Assembly: GCF_000020485.1 (NCBI RefSeq)
Contig: NC_011899.1
Span: 1,086,501-1,150,500 of the forward strand
Length of the DNA stretch: 64,000 bases
Source: Halothermothrix orenii H 168
GTDB lineage: Bacteria; Bacillota; Halanaerobiia; Halanaerobiales; Halothermotrichaceae
Direction of reading: 5' to 3'
The position numbers and the translations under genes were made by a program. Shown piece after piece: positions 3,283 to 50,195 of this stretch. The notes under the pieces were generated by a model. That model did not search any database, was not told the origin of the DNA, and saw only the letters and a list, made by a program, of their open reading frames with translations. The number at the start of each line of letters is the position of its first letter. The first letter of the stretch is position 1.

Positions 3283-3320
3283 TAAATAAATGTAAAAAAT
3301 AGAATAGGTTATTTTTACAA

Positions 3321-3438
3321 ATGCTAACGGGATACGGTGAGATTCCGAACCGGTGGTGAAAGTCCACAAGCCATATTTATTATGGTTGATTTGGTGAAAT
3401 TCCAAAACCGACAGTATAGTCTGGAAGGGAGTTAGCAT
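3321..3438 (+). ncRNA. FMN riboswitch (RFN element)
   Basis: The region is closed by a perfect P1 pair, ATGCTAAC at 3321-3328 with GTTAGCAT at 3431-3438. Between them lie the RFN core blocks: ACGGTGAGATTCCGAACCGG, GGTGGTGAAAGTCCACAAGCC, GGTGAAATTCCAAAACCGAC and AGTATAGTCTGGAAGGGAG. It precedes riboflavin biosynthesis genes and is followed by an intrinsic terminator, so FMN binding should cause early termination. The 3' core GGAAGGGA (3423-3430) is complementary to TCCCTTCC in the 5' arm of the terminator (3472-3479), which offers a direct antiterminator pairing. Confidence 0.95.
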
Positions 3439-3468
3439 TGAGCGGGTAATTTATACCTGTATATGACT

Positions 3469-7085: not shown

Positions 7086-7230
7086 TAGAGAATTTTAAAA
7101 TATAGTCATGAAATTTATTCTTCTGACATCATTTTTAAAAATAACTAAGAGAACAATCTAAAAATTATTAGAAGTTTTTAGAGGAATTTCAGGTAGTTAA
7201 ATAGAATATATTATCTAGTAAAATATTAAA

Positions 7231-7320
7231 ATTTGGGGAGCTTCGGCTGAGAGAGGCTGAGAGGATGCTAGAGCATCGACCCATTGAACCTGACCCGGGT
7301 AATTCCGGCGTAGGGAAAAT
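7231..7320 (+). ncRNA. TPP riboswitch (THI element)
   Basis: The conserved blocks are GGGGAGCTTCGGCTGAGA (from 7235), GAACCTGACCCGGGTAAT and the GGCGTAGGGA end (to 7317). Flanking ATTT/AAAT can close P1. It precedes thiT and thiN, both thiamine genes, as expected. I could not assign a convincing promoter: TAAAAT at 7219-7224 is well placed, but the -35 region is weak. Confidence 0.95.
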
Positions 7321-7348
7321 AAGATGAACTGTAGTCTACAGTTTATCT

Positions 7349-40516: not shown

Positions 40517-40622
40517 AGATGCATACAAGACCGGTTGATATTATAACAAATATATAACTGAAATTATTACATTCCTCTGGATTAATTAGCTGGACAAGTT
40601 TATTTTACGTGAGGTGGTAGTT

Positions 40623-41309
40623 ATGAATAATGTAATAGCAATTGACGGACCAGCCGGGGCAGGAAAGAGTACTTTAGCCCGTTTATTGGCCCGGAAGCTT
40701 AAATACAGGTACTTAGATACCGGAGCAATGTACCGGGCCGTTACCTGGTTAGCGCTAAGGGAAAACATTGACCTTGACAATATTCAGGGGTTGACCAGCC
40801 TTGCCAATAACATAGATATAGAGTTTTCTCCACCTTCCGGGGATAGAAAAGGACGGATATATGTTAATGGTAATGATGTTACTGAGGAGATAAGAACACC
40901 ACTTATTAATAAAAATGTGTCAAAGGTGGCCAGGGTTAAAGGTGTCAGGGACGCCATGGTCAGGCAACAGAGGAAACTGGCTCAAGGTGGCCATATTATT
41001 ATTGATGGTCGTGATATAGGTACCAGGGTAGTTCCTGATGCTGAATTTAAATTCTTTATTACGGCTTCATTAGAGGAGCGGGCCAGAAGGCGTTATACTG
41101 AACTTAAAGAAAAGGGTACAGGGGTAAATTTTCAAGAGGTGAAAGCGGAAATAGCAAGGCGGGATAAAATTGATTCAGAACGGGAGTGTTCTCCCCTGAC
41201 CAAACCGGAGGACGCGTTTTTAATTGATACTACTGGTATGTCCATTGATGAGGTGTTAACCAGGGTTATTAATATTATCAGAACAGGGGGCCAGGATTTA
41301 AATGAATAA
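40623..41309 (+). CDS. cmk: Cytidylate kinase
   Basis: Phosphorylates CMP and dCMP. The P-loop is GPAGAGKSTLARLLA, with YLDTGAMYRAVTWLA, DGRDIGTRVVPDAE and RRYTELKEKG. The length of 228 residues is typical of the long bacterial form. The ATG at 40623 follows GAGGTGG. plsC follows with an 8-bp overlap. In many clostridia the order continues with ispH-rpsA, which here lies 6 kb further on. Confidence 0.96.
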   Translation: MNNVIAIDGPAGAGKSTLARLLARKLKYRYLDTGAMYRAVTWLALRENIDLDNIQGLTSLANNIDIEFSPPSGDRKGRIYVNGNDVTEEIRTPLINKNVSKVARVKGVRDAMVRQQRKLAQGGHIIIDGRDIGTRVVPDAEFKFFITASLEERARRRYTELKEKGTGVNFQEVKAEIARRDKIDSERECSPLTKPEDAFLIDTTGMSIDEVLTRVINIIRTGGQDLNE

Positions 41310-41928
41310 ATTAAGGCAGGTATTAGGAAAAGTATTATACTGGTTAGCCTATTCTATATTTAATATATATTTTCTTGTGGTACATAGATGGCAGGTTGTC
41401 GGGAAGGAGAACCGCCTGACAAAAGGACCACTTATTGTAATGTCCAACCATGTAAGTAATCTTGACCCACCTGTGGTTGGTTGTATAATGAATAGACAGG
41501 TTCATTTCATGGCTAAAAAGGAATTATTTGAAAATCCAGTATCCAGATGGGTATTTAATACCATCGGAACTTTTCCTGTAAAGAGAGGAAAACCTGATCG
41601 GAAAGCCCTTCGCCAGGCTTTTTCAATATTAAAACAGGAAAAAGTACTGGGAGTCTTTCCTGAAGGAACAAGACATCGTCAGGGAAAACCGGGTAAAGCC
41701 CGCCTGGGGGCAGTTATGATTGCTTTAAGGAGTGAAGCCCCGATTTTACCGGTGGGAATTAGATATGATGATGGTAAAAAGATCAGGGTATCTATCGGGG
41801 AACCATTTACCCTGGATGAATATTATGGACGAAAAGTAACCAGGGAAGAAATGAAAGAAGCCGGACAAATTATCATGGACAGGATAATACAGCAGCTTAA
41901 TAATATTGAACCGGGGTACGGCAAATAA
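41302..41928 (+). CDS. plsC: 1-acyl-sn-glycerol-3-phosphate acyltransferase
   Basis: Acylates lysophosphatidic acid to phosphatidic acid at the membrane. Motif I is H50-x4-D55 (SNHVSNLDPP), followed by KRGKPDRKA, the FPEGTRHRQG block and VGIRY. One hydrophobic segment lies near residues 11-28. The length of 208 residues is normal. It completes the set of lipid enzymes in this window (plsX, plsY, plsC). A terminator follows at 41974. Confidence 0.95.
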   Translation: MNKLRQVLGKVLYWLAYSIFNIYFLVVHRWQVVGKENRLTKGPLIVMSNHVSNLDPPVVGCIMNRQVHFMAKKELFENPVSRWVFNTIGTFPVKRGKPDRKALRQAFSILKQEKVLGVFPEGTRHRQGKPGKARLGAVMIALRSEAPILPVGIRYDDGKKIRVSIGEPFTLDEYYGRKVTREEMKEAGQIIMDRIIQQLNNIEPGYGK

Positions 41929-42098: not shown

Positions 42099-42152
42099 GT
42101 AAACATATGTTATTATTAAACTGGATTAATATTGGAAGGAAGGGGGAAATTA

Positions 42153-43889
42153 ATGTCAGCTATAGATTTAGAAACAGGTCTTTTATTTATTTTAGTGAGA
42201 AATATGGGTGTTGTTGTCACTTTTGCCTATATATTAAGTATGACCAGGCTCTTTAAAAGATTTTTCTATGCCCCATTATCTCGAAAAGAAAAGATTTTTC
42301 TGGTCATTTTTTTTGGGCTCTTATCGGCATCAGGCACATATCTCAGTATATATATTATGGATGCTTATGCAAATATAAGGGCGATTGGGGCCGTAGTAGC
42401 TGGCTTTCTGGGAGGTCCCCTGATAGGGGTTCTGGTCGGGACTGTTGGTGGAATACACCGTTTTACGCTCGGGGGGTTTACAGCTCTGGCCTGTGCAATA
42501 GGAACCATGACTTCTGGTTTAATCGGTGGTTTATTTCATAAATCTTTTAAAAATCAACAAATTAATAGTAAGAATTCTTTTTATATTGGGGCAGTAGCTC
42601 TGATTATAGAGATGGTAATTGTAATTATATTTAGCAGACCAATTGAACTTGCCCTTCAACTGGTGTCGGTTATAAGTTTACCAATGATAATAGCCAATGC
42701 TGCAGGGATTTCATTATTTGTCAGTATTCTCAATAATGTTGAAAAGGAAAATGAAAATATTAAGGCAAAACAGGCGAGATTGACGCTGGATATTGCTAAT
42801 CAGACCATAAACTATTTCAGGGAGGGTTTAGCCCACGGCAGGGCTGTTAAAAAAGCATCAGAAATTATATTACAAAAAACAGGGGCTTCTGCAGTAGCAA
42901 TTACAGACAGAGAGAAGATTATTGCCTTTGCCGGTAAGGGTTCAGATCATCATTTTCCGGGAGAACCATTTTTAACTTCTGTTACCAGACAGACCATAAA
43001 TGAAGGTAAGGTTTCGGTGGCAAAAACTAAAAAAGAAGTCGGTTGTCCGGTTGAAAATTGTCCACTAGAGTCAGTCGTGGTAGCTCCACTGAAATGGGAT
43101 GGGAGAGTAATGGGGTCCTTAAAACTATACCATACAGAACGTAAATTATCTAAAGTTGATATAAGCCTGGCCGAGGGTATTTCAACCCTCTTATCTACCC
43201 AGATTCAGCTATCCCGTTTATCGGAACAGGCTAAATTAAAGACAGAAGCTGAATTAAAAGCCTTACAGGCCCAGGTGAATCCCCACTTTTTATTTAATTC
43301 ACTGAATACAATTGCCTCTTTTACAAGGACAGATCCAGAAAAAGCCAGGGAATTACTCCTGAGGCTATCCGATTTTTTTAGAACAACCCTTTCAAAGGGC
43401 CATGACCTGGTGTCATTAGAGACTGAAATTAAATCTGTCAGGAATTATTTCTTTTTAGAAAAAGCCAGGTTTGGAGAAAGGCTCGAATTAGTTATAAATA
43501 TTCCTGATGAATATATGTCGGTTATGATCCCCAGTTTTACCTTGCAGCCCCTTATTGAAAATGCTGTAAAACATGGTATATTTCCAAAAAATCGAAAGGG
43601 GAAAATAGACCTGTCAGTCCGTAGCAATGAAGATATTATTGAACTAATTGTAAGGGATAATGGGGTTGGTATTCCGGAAGAAGAATTAAAAATGGTCTTA
43701 AAAGAGGGTTATGGTAAAGGTTCCGGGATTGGTTTAAGTAACGTTATGGCCAGAATCAAGAATATTTTTGGTCCAGAGTATGGACTTACCATGGAGAGTG
43801 AAGAAAATACGGGGACCGAAGTTGTAATAAAAGTACCGTTACAGACAATTAAAAGAGAGGAGAACACCCCATGGAAATGCAGGCTTTAG
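42153..43889 (+). CDS. LytS-family sensor histidine kinase (5TM-5TMR, GAF)
   Basis: Membrane sensor kinase of 578 residues. The N-terminal part (about 1-200) holds six or so hydrophobic segments of the 5TMR_LYT type (GAVVAGFLGGPLIGVLVGTVGGI split across helices). A GAF-like domain (about 230-345) with three Cys in EVGCPVENCPLES follows. The kinase has QAQVNPHFLFNSLNTIASF with the phosphorylated His, an N box near ENAVKHGI and the glycine-rich GKGSGIGLSNV. Relatives (BtsS, LytS) sense pyruvate and control transporters. The ATG at 42153 follows GAAGGAAGGGGG. It overlaps the response regulator by 19 bp. Confidence 0.93.
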   Translation: MSAIDLETGLLFILVRNMGVVVTFAYILSMTRLFKRFFYAPLSRKEKIFLVIFFGLLSASGTYLSIYIMDAYANIRAIGAVVAGFLGGPLIGVLVGTVGGIHRFTLGGFTALACAIGTMTSGLIGGLFHKSFKNQQINSKNSFYIGAVALIIEMVIVIIFSRPIELALQLVSVISLPMIIANAAGISLFVSILNNVEKENENIKAKQARLTLDIANQTINYFREGLAHGRAVKKASEIILQKTGASAVAITDREKIIAFAGKGSDHHFPGEPFLTSVTRQTINEGKVSVAKTKKEVGCPVENCPLESVVVAPLKWDGRVMGSLKLYHTERKLSKVDISLAEGISTLLSTQIQLSRLSEQAKLKTEAELKALQAQVNPHFLFNSLNTIASFTRTDPEKARELLLRLSDFFRTTLSKGHDLVSLETEIKSVRNYFFLEKARFGERLELVINIPDEYMSVMIPSFTLQPLIENAVKHGIFPKNRKGKIDLSVRSNEDIIELIVRDNGVGIPEEELKMVLKEGYGKGSGIGLSNVMARIKNIFGPEYGLTMESEENTGTEVVIKVPLQTIKREENTPWKCRL

Positions 43890-44632
43890 TAGTTGACGAT
43901 GAAGCACCGGCCAGAAATGAGTTAATATTTATGCTTGAAAATAGTAAGGTTAATTTCCGGGTCAGGGAGGCAGATAATGGGAAAAAAGCCCTTGAGCTTG
44001 TAAATAATCATAATTTTGATGTGATTTTCCTGGATATTCAGATGCCTTCTTTAACCGGACTGGAAGTAGCTGCTGAAATTCTTAAGGTGGAGGATAAACC
44101 TGAAATTGTTTTTGTTACAGCTTATGATGAATATGCTATTAAGGCTTTTGAATTAAATGCTGTTGATTATTTACTGAAGCCATTTTCCAGGAAGCGTTTT
44201 GAGGAAACCATTAACCGGGTAATGAGTCATTCAAAAAAAGATAGAATAAAAGATACTATAAAAATAAATAAGGCTATTTCCCAATTAACCCCGGAATTAA
44301 AAAGGATACCGGTAAATTCAAAACGGGGACGGATTAAGTTATTAAAACCTTCAGAGATTTACTATGCCACAACTGAAGGGGGTAAGGTCTTTATAACATC
44401 TGAAGAGGGTGTATTTGAGTTTGCTAATGGATTAAAGGAGCTTGAAGAAATGTTAAACCTGCCCCAATTTTTTAGATGCCATCGAAGTTACCTTGTTAAT
44501 CTGTCTAAAGTAAAAGAACTGATTCCCTGGTTTAAAGGAAATTATTATCTTATTATTAATGATGAAAGTGAAGAGGAAATTCCGGTAGGGAGAACCAGGG
44601 TGAACGAGTTAAAGAAAAAATTAAATTTATAG
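43871..44632 (+). CDS. LytTR-family response regulator
   Basis: Two-domain regulator of 253 residues. The receiver domain has the phosphorylation site D55 in VIFLDIQMPS and the conserved Lys in LKPFSRKRF. The C-terminal LytTR DNA-binding domain (about 150-250) includes FFRCHRSYLVNLSKV. It is encoded with its kinase and directly upstream of cstA, like BtsSR-BtsT and LytSR systems. Two direct repeats 21 bp apart before cstA are likely binding sites. Confidence 0.94.
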   Translation: MEMQALVVDDEAPARNELIFMLENSKVNFRVREADNGKKALELVNNHNFDVIFLDIQMPSLTGLEVAAEILKVEDKPEIVFVTAYDEYAIKAFELNAVDYLLKPFSRKRFEETINRVMSHSKKDRIKDTIKINKAISQLTPELKRIPVNSKRGRIKLLKPSEIYYATTEGGKVFITSEEGVFEFANGLKELEEMLNLPQFFRCHRSYLVNLSKVKELIPWFKGNYYLIINDESEEEIPVGRTRVNELKKKLNL

Positions 44633-44644
44633 TTAAATTAATAG

Positions 44645-44682
44645 TATTTAAAATATATATTTTTATTTAAAATATATATTTT
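44645..44682. repeat. Exact 19-bp tandem duplication upstream of cstA
   Basis: TATTTAAAATATATATTTT occurs twice with no gap (44645-44663 and 44664-44682). It is AT-only and contains a palindromic core. It lies between the regulator gene and the direct repeats of the cstA promoter. Confidence 0.9.
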
Positions 44683-44711
44683 ACAGTTTGTCCCCCTATT
44701 TTTACAATTTA
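44680..44711 (+). promoter_or_regulatory. Candidate LytTR operator of cstA
   Basis: TTTACAGTTTG (44680-44690) and TTTACAATTTA (44701-44711) are direct repeats starting 21 bp apart, two helical turns. LytTR proteins typically bind two 9-bp direct repeats with about 12 bp between them. The site is 72 bp before the cstA ATG, leaving room for a -10 near 44720-44730. Confidence 0.6.
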
Positions 44712-44782
44712 GAGAAATTATATAGGTAATATCTTTGTTTTAAATTACAATTAAGGTGAAATATAAAACGGGGGGGACATAA

Positions 44783-46447
44783 ATGAATTCTGCAGTAGTA
44801 GGACTTATTGCATTTTTTCTCTTATTTTTAGGTTATAAGTACTATGGTGGGTTAATAGAACGTAAGGTAGTTAGACCGGATGATAGCAAAAAAACACCGG
44901 CCCACCGTCTTTATGATGGACAGGATTATAGTCCTGGTAAAAAGTCTTTGTTGTTTGGACACCATTTCTCCTCAATTGCCGGGGCTGCCCCTATTATTGG
45001 ACCTGTTGTTGCGGTTTATAACTTTGGATGGGGGTTGGGAGCTGTCTGGATTGTAGTTGGCGCTATTTTTATGGGAGCTGTTCACGATTATTTATCACTC
45101 ATGGTCTCTGTAAGAAATGATGGTAACTCTATGGCAGATGTAGCCGGAAAGGTAATGGGTAAAAAATCCAAAAAGATGTTTGCTATCTTTATGTGGATAA
45201 CCCTGGTATTAATTATTACCGTATTTGGCTGGGTTGCTGCTAAAACCCTGGCTACTAAACCGGAAATTGTACTACCTACCTTTTTGCTGTTACCTATTGC
45301 TATGTTGTTCGGGTTTGCTGTCTACAGGTTAAATGTACCTGTCTCTGTAGGAACCATATCTGCTATATTGCTGCTACTGGGTAGTATATACCTGGGTTAT
45401 AAAGTTCCTATATTATTACCTTTTGCTTTAAAAACCAATATGATACTCTGGTTTACAGCTTTAATGGGGTATGCACTGGTTGCTTCGGTATTACCAGTAT
45501 GGTTACTTTTACAGCCGCGGGATTATTTAAGTACCTTTGTGTTGTTTATCGGTCTTGCCGTTGGAATAGCCGGCCTGCTTGTAACCCATCCTGAAATTAA
45601 CGCTCCGGTATTTACCGGTGTTATGTCAGGGCAGGGTCCTGTCTGGCCAACATTGATGGTTCTGATTGCCTGTGGAGCTATTTCCGGTTTCCATTCTATT
45701 GTATCCGGTGGTACAACTTCTAAACAGCTTGATAAAGAAAGTGATGGAAGGGTAATTGGTTATGGTGGTATGATTATGGAATCAGTTCTTGCTTTTATTG
45801 CTCTTCTTGCTGTCAGTGCCGGACTTTTCTGGAATCCCCCGGCTGGTATGGAGCAATTTGGTTTTAGAACTTTATTTGAACAAAAGGGCTGGATTGTGGC
45901 TTTTGGGACCGGTTATGGACGTTTTGTAGAACCCTTTATAGGGATTTCTCTAGGAACATTATTTGCCATGACCATGTTAAAAACCTTTATTATGACATCA
46001 CTAGATACTTCTACCCGTCTGGCCAGGTTTATATTTACAGAAACATTTGGTGAAAACTCTAATATCTTAAAAAATAAATGGGTAGCTTCATTTATTTCAA
46101 TATTACCGGCATTTATACTTGGTGTAACTGGAAGCTGGCAGGGTATATGGACACTTTTTGGTGCCTCAAACCAGTTGATAGCAGCATTATCTTTAATTGT
46201 AGTTTCGGCTTACCTTATCGGGGTTAAAAAACCGGCAAAATACACCCTTATTCCGGCAGGCATTATGCTTATTACAACTATAGTTGCTTTATTATACAAG
46301 ATTTATTCTGACCTGATATTAGCACCTGAACCCAAATACTTTATTGTTCTGGTAGCTTTAGTAATCTTGTATCTCGCCATTGTAATGATGCGGGAAGCCA
46401 GGGATATCTTCTTTAATAAAAAAATAAACGTAGAAAACAATATGTAA
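44783..46447 (+). CDS. cstA: CstA-family carbon starvation / pyruvate transporter
   Basis: Polytopic membrane protein of 554 residues with about 15 hydrophobic segments. The N-terminal RLYDGQDYSPGKKSLLFGHH and GAAPIIGPVVA, then GAVHDYLSLM and GFHSIVSGGTTSKQL are strongly conserved in CstA/BtsT. Members take up pyruvate or peptides; control by a LytS/LytTR pair favours pyruvate, which fits fermentation by pta-ackA and malic enzyme (inference). The ATG at 44783 follows GGGGGGGACAT. A terminator follows. Confidence 0.93.
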   Translation: MNSAVVGLIAFFLLFLGYKYYGGLIERKVVRPDDSKKTPAHRLYDGQDYSPGKKSLLFGHHFSSIAGAAPIIGPVVAVYNFGWGLGAVWIVVGAIFMGAVHDYLSLMVSVRNDGNSMADVAGKVMGKKSKKMFAIFMWITLVLIITVFGWVAAKTLATKPEIVLPTFLLLPIAMLFGFAVYRLNVPVSVGTISAILLLLGSIYLGYKVPILLPFALKTNMILWFTALMGYALVASVLPVWLLLQPRDYLSTFVLFIGLAVGIAGLLVTHPEINAPVFTGVMSGQGPVWPTLMVLIACGAISGFHSIVSGGTTSKQLDKESDGRVIGYGGMIMESVLAFIALLAVSAGLFWNPPAGMEQFGFRTLFEQKGWIVAFGTGYGRFVEPFIGISLGTLFAMTMLKTFIMTSLDTSTRLARFIFTETFGENSNILKNKWVASFISILPAFILGVTGSWQGIWTLFGASNQLIAALSLIVVSAYLIGVKKPAKYTLIPAGIMLITTIVALLYKIYSDLILAPEPKYFIVLVALVILYLAIVMMREARDIFFNKKINVENNM

Positions 46448-46478: not shown

Positions 46479-46510
46479 ACACCCCGGAATATTGATTCCG
46501 GGGTGTTTTA
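46479..46510 (+). terminator. Intrinsic terminator of cstA, directly before intron fragment A
   Basis: ACACCCCGGAAT (46479-46490) and ATTCCGGGGTGT (46495-46506) form a perfect 12-bp stem, followed by TTTA. The group II intron fragment begins only 3 bases later at 46514. Confidence 0.93.
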
Positions 46511-46513
46511 TAT

Positions 46514-46814
46514 GTGTGTCCTGTATGCGTAAACAGCTTTACGGTGATAATCCGGAACAGGAGTTTGCAACGCCAAACGTTAGTAGAATAGTAAGGTCAT
46601 CTGATGTGAGGCAGTGTCTGAAGAAGACTGTAGCAAACTTCATCCCGGGAACAGGTTCCTCTTCTCCATTATAAATACCTATATGGATACCTAAATAATG
46701 CTTACATATCTGGGTGAGGTTGTATAACAGAATAAAACTTAAGTTGTCCGAAAGGTAAATAAGTAAATGGAAACAGGTGGTGATGTGAAAGGGGGCGGGT
46801 TAACCACCGTTACA
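46514..46814 (+). mobile_element. Decayed group II intron, 5' fragment A (domain I)
   Basis: Starts with GTGTG, the group II intron 5' consensus. Blocks that I recognise from full-length bacterial group II introns occur in order: TACGGTGA (46540), TCCGGAACAGG (46551), a TCTGAAGAAGACTG-like stretch (46617), GGGTGAGGTTGTA (46712) and GTAAATGGAAAC (about 46773). No reverse transcriptase and no domain V hairpin are present, so this is a 3'-truncated remnant. The same order occurs in fragment B at 47625. The end is set where similarity to B fades. Recognition is from memory and was not aligned by machine. Confidence 0.72.
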
Positions 46815-46899
46815 TAGTCGATTTTTTAGATTATTTATATATGCGATAATAAGGTATAGTAAAATTACAATAATATAATAGTAATAATAACTAATACTA

Positions 46900-46928
46900 T
46901 TGACACATTACTATAAATATTTTATAAT
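46900..46928 (+). promoter_or_regulatory. Consensus SigA promoter of the bacteriohemerythrin gene
   Basis: A perfect TTGACA (46900-46905) and perfect TATAAT (46923-46928) are 17 bp apart. Transcription would start near 46935, leaving a leader of about 45 nt before the ATG at 46981. Confidence 0.87.
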
Positions 46929-46980
46929 GTTTATAAAGCGATTATATATTGAGATAAAAATATCGAAAAGGGGGATAAAT

Positions 46981-47397
46981 ATGTTTAAATGGAAAGAAGA
47001 GTATTCTGTGGGGATTAAGGAGATAGATGACCAGCATAAAAAATTATTCAGTATTGCCGACGAATTATTTCTTGCCCTGGAAAATAATGAAGAGGGATTT
47101 GACCAGTATGACACTATTCACAAGCTATTAAAAGAATTGCATGACTATACTGTTTACCATTTTGAAACTGAAGAAGAATTAATGGAAAGACATGATTTTA
47201 TTGGACTGGGTAGCCACAGGTTTCAGCATAAAATATTTGTTAAAAAACTGGAGGAAATTGACCTTGAAGAACTGGACCTTAATCAAAAGGAAGGAATTAT
47301 GGATCTCCTGAATTTTATTGTAAACTGGATTGAGAAACATATTCTTGAAGAAGATCAGAAATATGGTCCATTTTTAAGAGAAAAAATTAATACATAA
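46981..47397 (+). CDS. Bacteriohemerythrin
   Basis: Oxygen-binding, non-haem di-iron four-helix protein of 138 residues. The complete ligand set can be read: H19 (DDQHKK), H60 and E64 (HFETEE), H79 and H83 (HRFQH), H120 and D125 (KHILEED). In an anaerobe it probably binds or delivers O2 for detoxification or sensing (inference). The ATG at 46981 follows AAGGGGGAT. It has its own consensus promoter and terminator and lies between two group II intron remnants. Confidence 0.95.
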   Translation: MFKWKEEYSVGIKEIDDQHKKLFSIADELFLALENNEEGFDQYDTIHKLLKELHDYTVYHFETEEELMERHDFIGLGSHRFQHKIFVKKLEEIDLEELDLNQKEGIMDLLNFIVNWIEKHILEEDQKYGPFLREKINT

Positions 47398-47535
47398 AAT
47401 CATTACATAGTAAAGCCTAAATATTAAAGTTTAAAACATTGCCATAAAACCCTATTATAATTATGTTTTAAATGATTATGGAATAAAATAGGTATGAAAT
47501 AAAATAGGTTATATACATAAAATTAAAAATATATT

Positions 47536-47577
47536 AAGATTAAGCTGACTATTACCAGTTTTGCTTAATCTTTTTTA
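47536..47577 (+). terminator. Intrinsic terminator after bacteriohemerythrin
   Basis: AAGATTAAGC pairs with GCTTAATCTT, followed by TTTTTAT. It lies about 140 bp after the stop codon. The 47398-47535 stretch is AT-rich and holds nothing else that I can support. Confidence 0.85.
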
Positions 47578-47593
47578 TATACATCATTAAAAT

Positions 47594-47624
47594 TGCAGGT
47601 TTTTTTACCTGCAGTTTATTTTAT
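47594..47624 (+). terminator. Second hairpin with T-rich tail, directly before intron fragment B
   Basis: TGCAGGT (47594-47600) pairs with ACCTGCA (47607-47613), followed by GTTTATTTTAT. The group II fragment B begins right at 47625. It may be part of the insertion target, because some group II introns choose sites behind terminator hairpins. Confidence 0.7.
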
Positions 47625-47914
47625 GTGTGCCCGGGCATGAATAACAGTTATACGGTGAAAGTCCGGAACAGGGGTTTGCAACATCAACCGTTAACCGAAA
47701 ACAAGGGGTGCCTGACGTGAGGTAGGATCCGGAGGAAACTTCACTACAGGAACACATTCCTCTTCTCCATTATTGGTGTACTTATATGGGGTGGCCTATA
47801 TGAGTTTACATATATGGGTGAGGTTGTACAACACTAAAACCCTAAGTTGCTCGAAATGAATGTCAGTAAATGAAACGGGGGGATGTAAGAAGGTGGCGGG
47901 TTCCCGGGTCCTAC
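47625..47914 (+). mobile_element. Decayed group II intron, 5' fragment B (domain I)
   Basis: Begins GTGTGCCCGGGCATG, very close to 5' ends of known bacterial group II introns. The ordered blocks are TACGGTGA (47651), TCCGGAACAGG (47662), CAAGGGGTGCCTGACGTGAGG (split near 47702), GGAGGAAACTTC, GGGTGAGGTTGTA (47816) and GTAAATGAAACGGGGG. It shares an identical 16-base run, TTCCTCTTCTCCATTA, with fragment A (47757-47772 and 46656-46671). There is no reverse transcriptase or domain V. The copies are clearly related but diverged, which suggests separate insertions rather than one duplication. Confidence 0.75.
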
Positions 47915-48083
47915 TCAATTTAATTTAACCCACTAATTTTTTGATATATGAAAACTTTTTTTAAGTTTTAGGGAGGATTCTTGAGATTAATAGCGAAAAG
48001 TTATAAAGGGTATGAAATAATGTTGTATTTAATGGGTATACTAATTAGCAAATGTTGCATAGCTGGTGCTGGGGTTGAAGGGG

Positions 48084-50195
48084 GTGTCGGTTCTGGAGGT
48101 ATATGTCGCAGATGAATCTGGTTTTTGTTTTGGAGTTAAACGAGCAATTAATCTAGCAATGGAAGCTGCCGGGAATAATAAAGAAGAAATCCCTGTATAT
48201 ACCCTGGGCCCTTTAATTCATAATCCACAGGTTGTAAAAAGATTAAAAGAGATGGGTATTGAATCTTTAGATTCACTTGATATAATTGATAATGGGGTTA
48301 TCATTATACGGTCACATGGTGTACCCCCTGATATAATAGAGAAAGCCCGTCAAAAGGGTTTACATATAATAGACGCAACCTGTCCCTATGTAAAAAATGC
48401 CCAGAAGTATGCCAGAGAGCTTGTTGATAAAGGATACCAGACAATAATTTTTGGGGATAGAGACCACCCGGAAGTTATCGGTATCAACGGGGCAGCGCGT
48501 AATGAGTCCATTATTATAAGCAGTGAGAAGGAAATAAAAGATATTAACCTTTCCAGTAAAGTTGGGCTAATAGCCCAGACTACCAAATCACCTGCTTCTT
48601 TTCAAAAGATTGTAAGTTATATTTTACCTGAAGTTAAAGAGTTACGGATTTACAATACTATCTGTAGAACTACAGAAACAAGGCAAAAATCTGCCGTTGA
48701 TTTAGCCAGACAGGTAGATGCTATGTTCGTAATTGGGGGAAAAAACAGTGCTAATACTACCCGGTTAGCAGAACTGTGTGCTGAAACTGGGACCCCAACT
48801 TATCATATAGAGACTGCCGGAGAGATTGATTTCAGGCAGTTGAAATCTTACAATAAAATAGGTATTACAGCAGGGGCTTCGACCCCAGACTGGTTAATTA
48901 AGGAGGTTATTGAGGCTATGAGTGAAGAAAAAAGAGATGCAGAATTACAGGAAGAAATTCAAGAGGGAGTAAATACTGATAATACTCCTGAAACACCAAA
49001 TGGTGAAGAAAATCCCATTGAAAATGAGGAAGAATTTAACTACGATGACAATAATCCCGCTGATTTAAAAAAAGGTCAGCAGGTAAAAGGTAAAGTTGTA
49101 GAAATTGGGGATAATGGGGTTTATGTGGATGTCGGATATAAAACCGAAGGTTTAATACCCCTCAGGGAATTAAGCCACCGGGATTTTGAAGACCCCCATG
49201 AAATTGTCGAAGAAGGTGAAGAAATCGATGTAATCGTTCTTACCCTTGAAGATGAAGAAGGAAATATGGTCTTATCAAAAAAACGGGCTGATTTTGAGAA
49301 GGCCTGGGAGCGTATCCTGAAAGCCTATGAAAATGATGAAATCATCGAAGCAGAAGTTACCAGAGAAGTTAAAGGTGGTCTTGTAGTAGATATTGGTCTC
49401 CGTGGTTTTGTACATGCTTCCCATGTGGCAATTGGATATGTTGAAGATTTAAGTGATTATGTTGGGAAAACATTACGTTTAAAAGTTATAGAAGTTGAAC
49501 GTGATAAAAACAATGTTGTTCTATCTGCTAAAAAAGTTCTGGAAGAAGAGAGAGAAAAGCAGAAAGAGAAAACCCTGGAAGAATTACAAGAAGGACAGGT
49601 TGTTAAAGGTAAAGTTACCAAGATAGTAGATTTTGGTGCTTTCGTGGATCTGGGAGGAATTGAAGGCCTCTTACACATTTCAGAAATGTCCTGGGGTAGG
49701 ATAGAACATCCTTCTGAAGTATTGGAAGAAGGTCAGGAAATAGAGGTTAAAGTACTGGCAGTAAACAAAGAAGAGGAAAGAATCTCACTTGGACTAAAAC
49801 AGCTTTTACCTGATCCCTGGGAAGAGTTTGCTAAAAAGCATTATGAAGGAGAGGTAGTTTCTGGTACAATTACTAAAATAGTAGACTTTGGAGCTTTCAT
49901 GGAAATTGAAAATGGTATAGAGGGATTAATTCATATTTCACAGCTATCACATCGTCATGTAAAAACTCCAGATGAAGTAGTATCTGTAGGAGAAGAAATC
50001 AAGGCAGAGATTATTAATATTGACCCAGAGCAGAAAAGGGTTGGATTGAGTATAAAAGCACTTGAAGAACAACCAGAAACACCAAAAAAAGTCGAAGCAC
50101 CAAAAAAGGAACCTACCAGGGAAAATGAATCTACCTCTGGAGTAACCATTGGAGAGATTGTTGGGGATATTCTTAAAAAAGAAGATGATAAATAA
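48084..50195 (+). CDS. ispH: IspH-S1 fusion: HMB-PP reductase with four S1 RNA-binding domains
   Basis: The N-terminal part (about 1-280) is 4-hydroxy-3-methylbut-2-enyl diphosphate reductase, the last step of the MEP isoprenoid pathway. Its three cluster Cys are in SGFCFGVKRA, DATCPYVKN and NTICRTTETRQ; RSHGVPP and RDHPEV are active-site loops. After an acidic linker (about 285-325) come four S1 domains (about 330-400, 415-485, 503-575 and 587-660), the ribosomal protein S1-like part. The fusion is known in several clostridia. The start is uncertain: GTG 48084, GTG 48066 or CTG 48093, none with ideal spacing to GAAGGGGG (48077-48084). Confidence 0.93.
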   Translation: MSVLEVYVADESGFCFGVKRAINLAMEAAGNNKEEIPVYTLGPLIHNPQVVKRLKEMGIESLDSLDIIDNGVIIIRSHGVPPDIIEKARQKGLHIIDATCPYVKNAQKYARELVDKGYQTIIFGDRDHPEVIGINGAARNESIIISSEKEIKDINLSSKVGLIAQTTKSPASFQKIVSYILPEVKELRIYNTICRTTETRQKSAVDLARQVDAMFVIGGKNSANTTRLAELCAETGTPTYHIETAGEIDFRQLKSYNKIGITAGASTPDWLIKEVIEAMSEEKRDAELQEEIQEGVNTDNTPETPNGEENPIENEEEFNYDDNNPADLKKGQQVKGKVVEIGDNGVYVDVGYKTEGLIPLRELSHRDFEDPHEIVEEGEEIDVIVLTLEDEEGNMVLSKKRADFEKAWERILKAYENDEIIEAEVTREVKGGLVVDIGLRGFVHASHVAIGYVEDLSDYVGKTLRLKVIEVERDKNNVVLSAKKVLEEEREKQKEKTLEELQEGQVVKGKVTKIVDFGAFVDLGGIEGLLHISEMSWGRIEHPSEVLEEGQEIEVKVLAVNKEEERISLGLKQLLPDPWEEFAKKHYEGEVVSGTITKIVDFGAFMEIENGIEGLIHISQLSHRHVKTPDEVVSVGEEIKAEIINIDPEQKRVGLSIKALEEQPETPKKVEAPKKEPTRENESTSGVTIGEIVGDILKKEDDK

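Follow-up and report, generated by a model that had tools for sequence, protein, structure and literature searches.

The stretch of DNA analyzed (the window, 64,000 nucleotides) lies in a host genome made up of a single contig of 2,578,146 bases. The gene order in the region of interest is cmk-like and plsC-like, LytS-like and LytTR-like, CstA-family, element A, bacteriohemerythrin, element B, and ispH-S1. The cmk-like and plsC-like open reading frames (ORFs) occupy positions 40614-41928, with the plsC-like ORF, whose identity was read from its translation, at 41302-41928. They are followed by the LytS-like kinase and LytTR-like regulator at 42132-44632 and by the CstA-family transporter at 44783-46447. 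The kinase, regulator, and transporter set (42132-46447), located between plsC and ispH, resembles the BtsSR-BtsT pyruvate system. Beyond element B, IspH (LytB) and four S1 domains are fused in one ORF of 709 amino acids at 48066-50195. The first-pass annotation of this DNA had placed A and B in a block that separates plsC from ispH, and this placement is correct. The window also contains an FMN riboswitch (3319-3440) and a TPP riboswitch (7224-7333), both of which scored above the Rfam gathering scores.

The gene between the two elements, at 46981..47397 on the plus strand, encodes a bacteriohemerythrin of 138 amino acids (NF033749, 113.8 bits with a cut-off of 84; PF01814, 59.8 bits). A perfect sigma-70 promoter, TTGACA-17-TATAAT (12/12 matches), precedes it at 46900..46928 on the same strand, in agreement with the earlier description of a bacteriohemerythrin gene with its own promoter flanked by the two elements. 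With this promoter the gene needs no connection to the introns; it is an ordinary, unrelated host-gene neighbor of A and B.

Element A spans 46514..46822 (309 nt) and element B spans 47625..47919 (295 nt), both on the plus strand. The two were 72% identical and co-oriented in a within-genome search (E 7e-29). They share ordered blocks, and each opens with GTGTG, the group IIC 5' end (46514 in A, 47625 in B), directly behind a terminator, so the blocks and starts reported from the first reading are real. The first-pass annotation had looked to further copies with the same 3' end, and BLASTN against the genome found two full-length copies, A and B, and no others (n = 2). The presumed group IIC target of A is the intrinsic terminator behind the CstA-family gene (46479..46506, plus strand), a 12-pair stem followed by TTTATAT and then the GTG of the intron. 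That of B is a terminator-like hairpin (47590..47617, plus strand) with an 11-pair stem, followed by ATTTTAT and then GTG.

Group II introns are recognized by a GUGYG 5' end, domain I (D1), the catalytic hairpin of domain V (D5), and domain VI (D6) with a 3' end of AY; an intron-encoded reverse transcriptase (RT) is usual but not obligatory. The Rfam model RF02001 (group-II-D1D4-3) matched both elements over their full length, at 24.0 bits for A and 21.4 bits for B, and these were the two best matches in the genome, though below the gathering score of 32. We also constructed a covariance model of 5' ends (R1) from 16 introns of other genomes, with A and B excluded. This model scored A at 44.3 bits (E 4e-11, 46514-46628) and B at 88.2 bits (E 1e-23, 47625-47739), in each case from model position 1, while intact relatives mostly scored 100-133 bits. 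The resemblance to group II domain I described at first reading is thus borne out by both the Rfam and the R1 scores.

When B was searched by BLASTN in 398 genomes of the phylum, 30 had matches. These matches sit at the 5' end of B, save for a few short ones in its middle or end, and most of the matched loci carry group II D1, D5, or RT sequence as determined by RF02001, D5, and RT searches. Alignments of B to introns of other genomes start at position 1 (for example, 79% over 84 nt, E 1.5e-12). The 5' end could be located in 26 relatives, and in nearly all of these a terminator hairpin stands directly before it; the RT of one relative, L131, has the GsI-IIC RT as its best solved match (506 bits). 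The hallmark of bacterial class C introns is that they insert behind intrinsic terminators (PMC4424553; PMC8919778). Judged from their sequence, A and B derive from a group IIC intron. Pairing of EBS1 with IBS1 in the flanks was plausible by eye and was set aside because the sites are T-rich. Apart from 5' ends shared with ordinary introns, no close relative of A or B was detectable by BLASTN in the 398 phylum genomes, no relative or orthologue was found in 37 other genomes of the order, and B had no match among plasmids and phages. A 17-base run common to A and B had 99 matches in 84,980 genomes, and no BLAST match reached beyond approximately 30 bases around the run.

The first-pass annotation had called both elements 3'-truncated, ending at 46814 and 47914. 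The ends are corrected to 46822 and 47919, a few bases further, and in the tails D6 and the intron 3' terminus can be recognized by alignment, so the term is not supported. Surveyed group IIC introns terminate in ...GTGGTGTGAGAGGACGG-loop-CCTCCTACTCGAT; A terminates in GGTGGTGATGTGAAAGGGGGCGGGTTAACCACCGTTACATAGTCGAT followed by TTTTTAG and B in GATGTAAGAAGGTGGCGGGTTCCCGGGTCCTACTCAAT followed by TTAATTT, with CGAT and CAAT as the last bases in the two copies. The putative D5-3'/D6-derived tail of A (46779..46822, plus strand, ending ...TAGTCGAT) aligned to D5-D6 of the intron L241 over 44 nt, without gaps and to the last base, and 0 of 2000 dinucleotide shuffles did as well. The corresponding tail of B (47879..47919, plus strand, ending ...TCCTACTCAAT) aligned to D6 of L239 and L262, again reaching the last base (p 0.001-0.002 by shuffles). 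When the tails were compared to the stretch from the end of D1 through D2-D3 of the same introns, A was marginal (p 0.04-0.08) and B was not significant (p 0.87); the best match of A was in L239, in a stretch that itself runs into D5-D6. Neither tail continues convincingly into D2-D3.

A model of D6 (R3), scanned without filters over the whole 64 kb window, found its best match in the A tail (46780-46822, 11.9 bits), which at E 0.4 is not significant alone. B was absent among the window matches at E<=10, and an R3 search of the organism's own genome gave no match. By a 3'-end weight matrix, the terminus of B ranked 13 of 127,976 window positions and that of A ranked 489th. The best match of a D5-D6 model (R2), run without filters over 1.7 kb, was weak (47849-47919, 3.4 bits) and placed the terminus of B on the 3' end of the model. 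No single test is overwhelming; taken together, they indicate with fair confidence that the tails of A and B are D6. If the tails are read as D6, the shared GGCGGGTT block would be the 5' arm of D6 and not the end of D1. An earlier reading, in which the 3' end common to A and B closes domain I as a stem (CCCGGG/CCCGGG in B), was dropped on seeing the D6 3' ends of the relatives.

Because both copies appear to keep a D6-derived 3' end, the loss would be internal, comprising D2-D5 plus the ORF. D2, D3, D4 with its RT ORF, and D5 are absent from each copy. The genome gave no match to RF00029 (D5) at E<=10, and RVT_1 (PF00078) and the GIIM maturase domain (PF08388) are absent from it, so the reported lack of a reverse transcriptase and of domain V extends genome-wide. 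Splicing is not expected without D5. In both copies the fusion lies between AGTAAATG and GATGT, in a junction region that reads AGTAAATG-(G)AAAC-(A)GG-N-GG-(T)GATGT, and the D1/D6 junction can be placed within about 25 nt. The common fusion region supports the proposal that both were cut at one point. The companion proposal of a miniature element derived from domain I is partly right: there are two full-length copies, and the composition is D1 plus D6 and not D1 alone.

Two shorter remnants were found elsewhere in the genome. C (L216; G000:C1:2007583-2007668, minus strand; R1 28.9 bits) is a third group IIC 5' end, directly behind a terminator, in which similarity ceases after approximately 70 nt. 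In an RNA fold of this locus, GTGCCCGTAT is closed by a downstream arm, perhaps by chance. D (L217; G000:C1:2281468-2281563, minus strand; R1 19 bits) is a fourth 5' remnant of approximately 50 nt, also behind a terminator. No D6 tail was detectable in C or D, and the same R1 search also listed three matches weaker than these two. This genome is an intron graveyard.

Internal losses were also seen in another Firmicutes genome (G071), in which the eight fetched copies have lost different internal parts. Two of them, L281 (239 nt) and L287 (238 nt), sit behind different terminators with one common junction; the deletion joins half of D1 to D5-D6, so that the remainder of D1 is lost and D5 is kept. 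L286 (343 nt) consists of D1 fused to D6; the D5 hairpin is absent and the ends are intact. In L285, approximately 180 nt of D1 are apparently joined to the last ten intron bases, as seen by eye and without an R3 match. These losses indicate that introns repeatedly lose internal parts while keeping both termini, and that a D1 plus D6 arrangement is not unique to the window.

Upstream, A and B are flanked by two different terminators, and downstream their flanks seem to have nothing in common, so a segmental duplication does not account for the pair. The domain I tree placed A and B as sisters (support 100/98) on a long common branch, adjoining L155/L158 (support 96/89). In intact introns, the end of D1 had no significant similarity to the D5/D6 linker (p 0.1-0.6), which lends no support to a sequence hotspot for repeated deletion. 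The sisterhood and the absence of a hotspot favor one deletion followed by copying, without proving it, as has been argued for Thermosynechococcus, where identical breakpoints in ORF-less introns were read as one deletion and then proliferation (PMC2882425). We consider it probable that A and B are copies of one group IIC intron with an internal deletion, which was copied to a second terminator (probability roughly 0.58). A full-length intron would have been stripped of the whole stretch from the end of domain I to the base of D5/D6, in a deletion that may have happened only once, and what was left would be a D1-D6 element of approximately 300 nt whose 5' end (GTGTG) and 3' end (CGAT / CAAT) are exact. 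A full-length sister could then have supplied the ribozyme and RT by which the shortened element was copied behind the second terminator. Copying of ORF-less group II introns by a ribozyme and RT supplied in trans is known. The full-length sister would have been lost later, leaving A and B as immobile, decaying fossils.

Several points count against this explanation. There are only two copies, neither with a fold more stable than shuffled controls, and their D1/D6 junction is located only to about 25 nt. B was unlisted by the R3 scan, the R3 search of the own genome gave no match, and the R3 score of A is not significant alone. In addition, D5 is the catalytic core, so an RNA that lacks it could move only with D5 provided in trans, and we know of no bacterial intron for which D5 is supplied in trans for mobility. 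That the D5-less D1-D6 element was itself mobile, inserting behind terminators with D5 catalysis and RT from a sister intron, is a tentative proposal. It is equally speculative that such an element would parallel, in a bacterium, both group III introns and miniature non-autonomous transposons.

Alternatively, A and B could go back to separate insertions of two full-length group IIC introns whose middles were lost independently, in which case no D5-less element moved. The losses could have occurred by DNA deletion or by a jump of the RT, while it copied the inserted RNA, from the D5 hairpin base into domain I; since such a jump is internal, both ends would stay. Jumping at the D5 hairpin could also yield the same junction twice, and in L286 the match to D6 sets in at the D5/D6 boundary (R3 model positions 8-44). 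Among group II copies in bacteria, truncated or inactivated ones form the majority (PMC4424553), and the recurrent terminus-keeping deletions of G071 (L281/L287, L285, L286) have differing breakpoints. However, independent loss needs the same breakpoints twice, between a D1 end and a D5/D6 region without significant homeology, and A and B have both the junction features (AAAC.GG.GG.GATGT) and a long branch in common. We regard independent loss as possible but the less probable course of events.

It is improbable that A and B are plain 3'-truncated domain I fragments with D6-like tails by chance. The failure of the D6 model to list B and the tailless state of C and D in the same genome would agree with this, but two tails aligning to D6 and ending exactly at the intron 3' terminus (shuffle p approximately 5e-4 and 1e-3) argue against it. 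It is also improbable that the host has retained A and B as structured RNAs, for instance in a 3'-UTR or read-through role behind the two terminators: conserved blocks (TTCCTCTTCTCCATTAT; TGGGTGAGGTTGTA) persist in both copies, but folding energies are no better than shuffled (z -0.6 and -0.8), A has decayed to 44 bits compared to 100-133 for intact 5' ends, and the 37 other genomes of the order hold no orthologue, so that A and B are, as far as their sequences tell, most likely inert.

The reading of one deletion that was then copied can be compared to several known systems. Group IIC introns (class C, the RF02001 group behind the GsI-IIC RT) have the GTGYG start, domain I, terminator insertion, and, if the tails are read as D6, the D6-type 3' end CTCNAT in common with A and B, which lack D2-D5 and the ORF and measure approximately 300 nt compared to approximately 1.9 kb. 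The TeI3 family of Thermosynechococcus likewise has an internal deletion common to copies at different sites; however, D5 and a working ribozyme persist in the TeI3 introns, and A and B have neither (PMC2882425). Group III introns of Euglena chloroplasts also combine D1-like and D6-like parts without D5, D6 in A and B being assigned by alignment with fair confidence. These introns are 90-120 nt long, lie inside chloroplast genes, and are spliced, whereas A and B are 295-309 nt long, intergenic, bacterial, and probably dead (PMC4424553). The G071 copies L281, L285, L286, and L287 resemble A and B in having kept the termini and lost the middle, and L286 also in being D1 plus D6 without D5, but their breakpoints are independent and L281 and L287 retain D5.

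The underlying biology is known. A and B are fossil group IIC introns and represent mostly ordinary intron decay with a slightly unusual architecture, D1 plus D6 with a deletion that is probably common to the two copies. If the shared deletion does reflect copying, a group II RNA that lacks the catalytic domain could be inserted with both ends intact, with D5 coming from another molecule, and this would be a step long proposed toward spliceosomal and group III introns. If it does not, decay by internal deletion that keeps the termini still recurs, and it would be missed by truncation surveys anchored on RT or D5.

Short introns of other kinds were also encountered among the relatives. L239, L240, and L258, all from one genome (G131), are ORF-less group IIC introns of about 460-650 nt, and the middles of L239 and L240 differ. 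At L264 (G107:C1:2164400-2167300), ORF-less IIC introns of 662 nt, four or more of them, lie in tandem, head to tail and without a spacer, as if each had inserted at the end of its predecessor.
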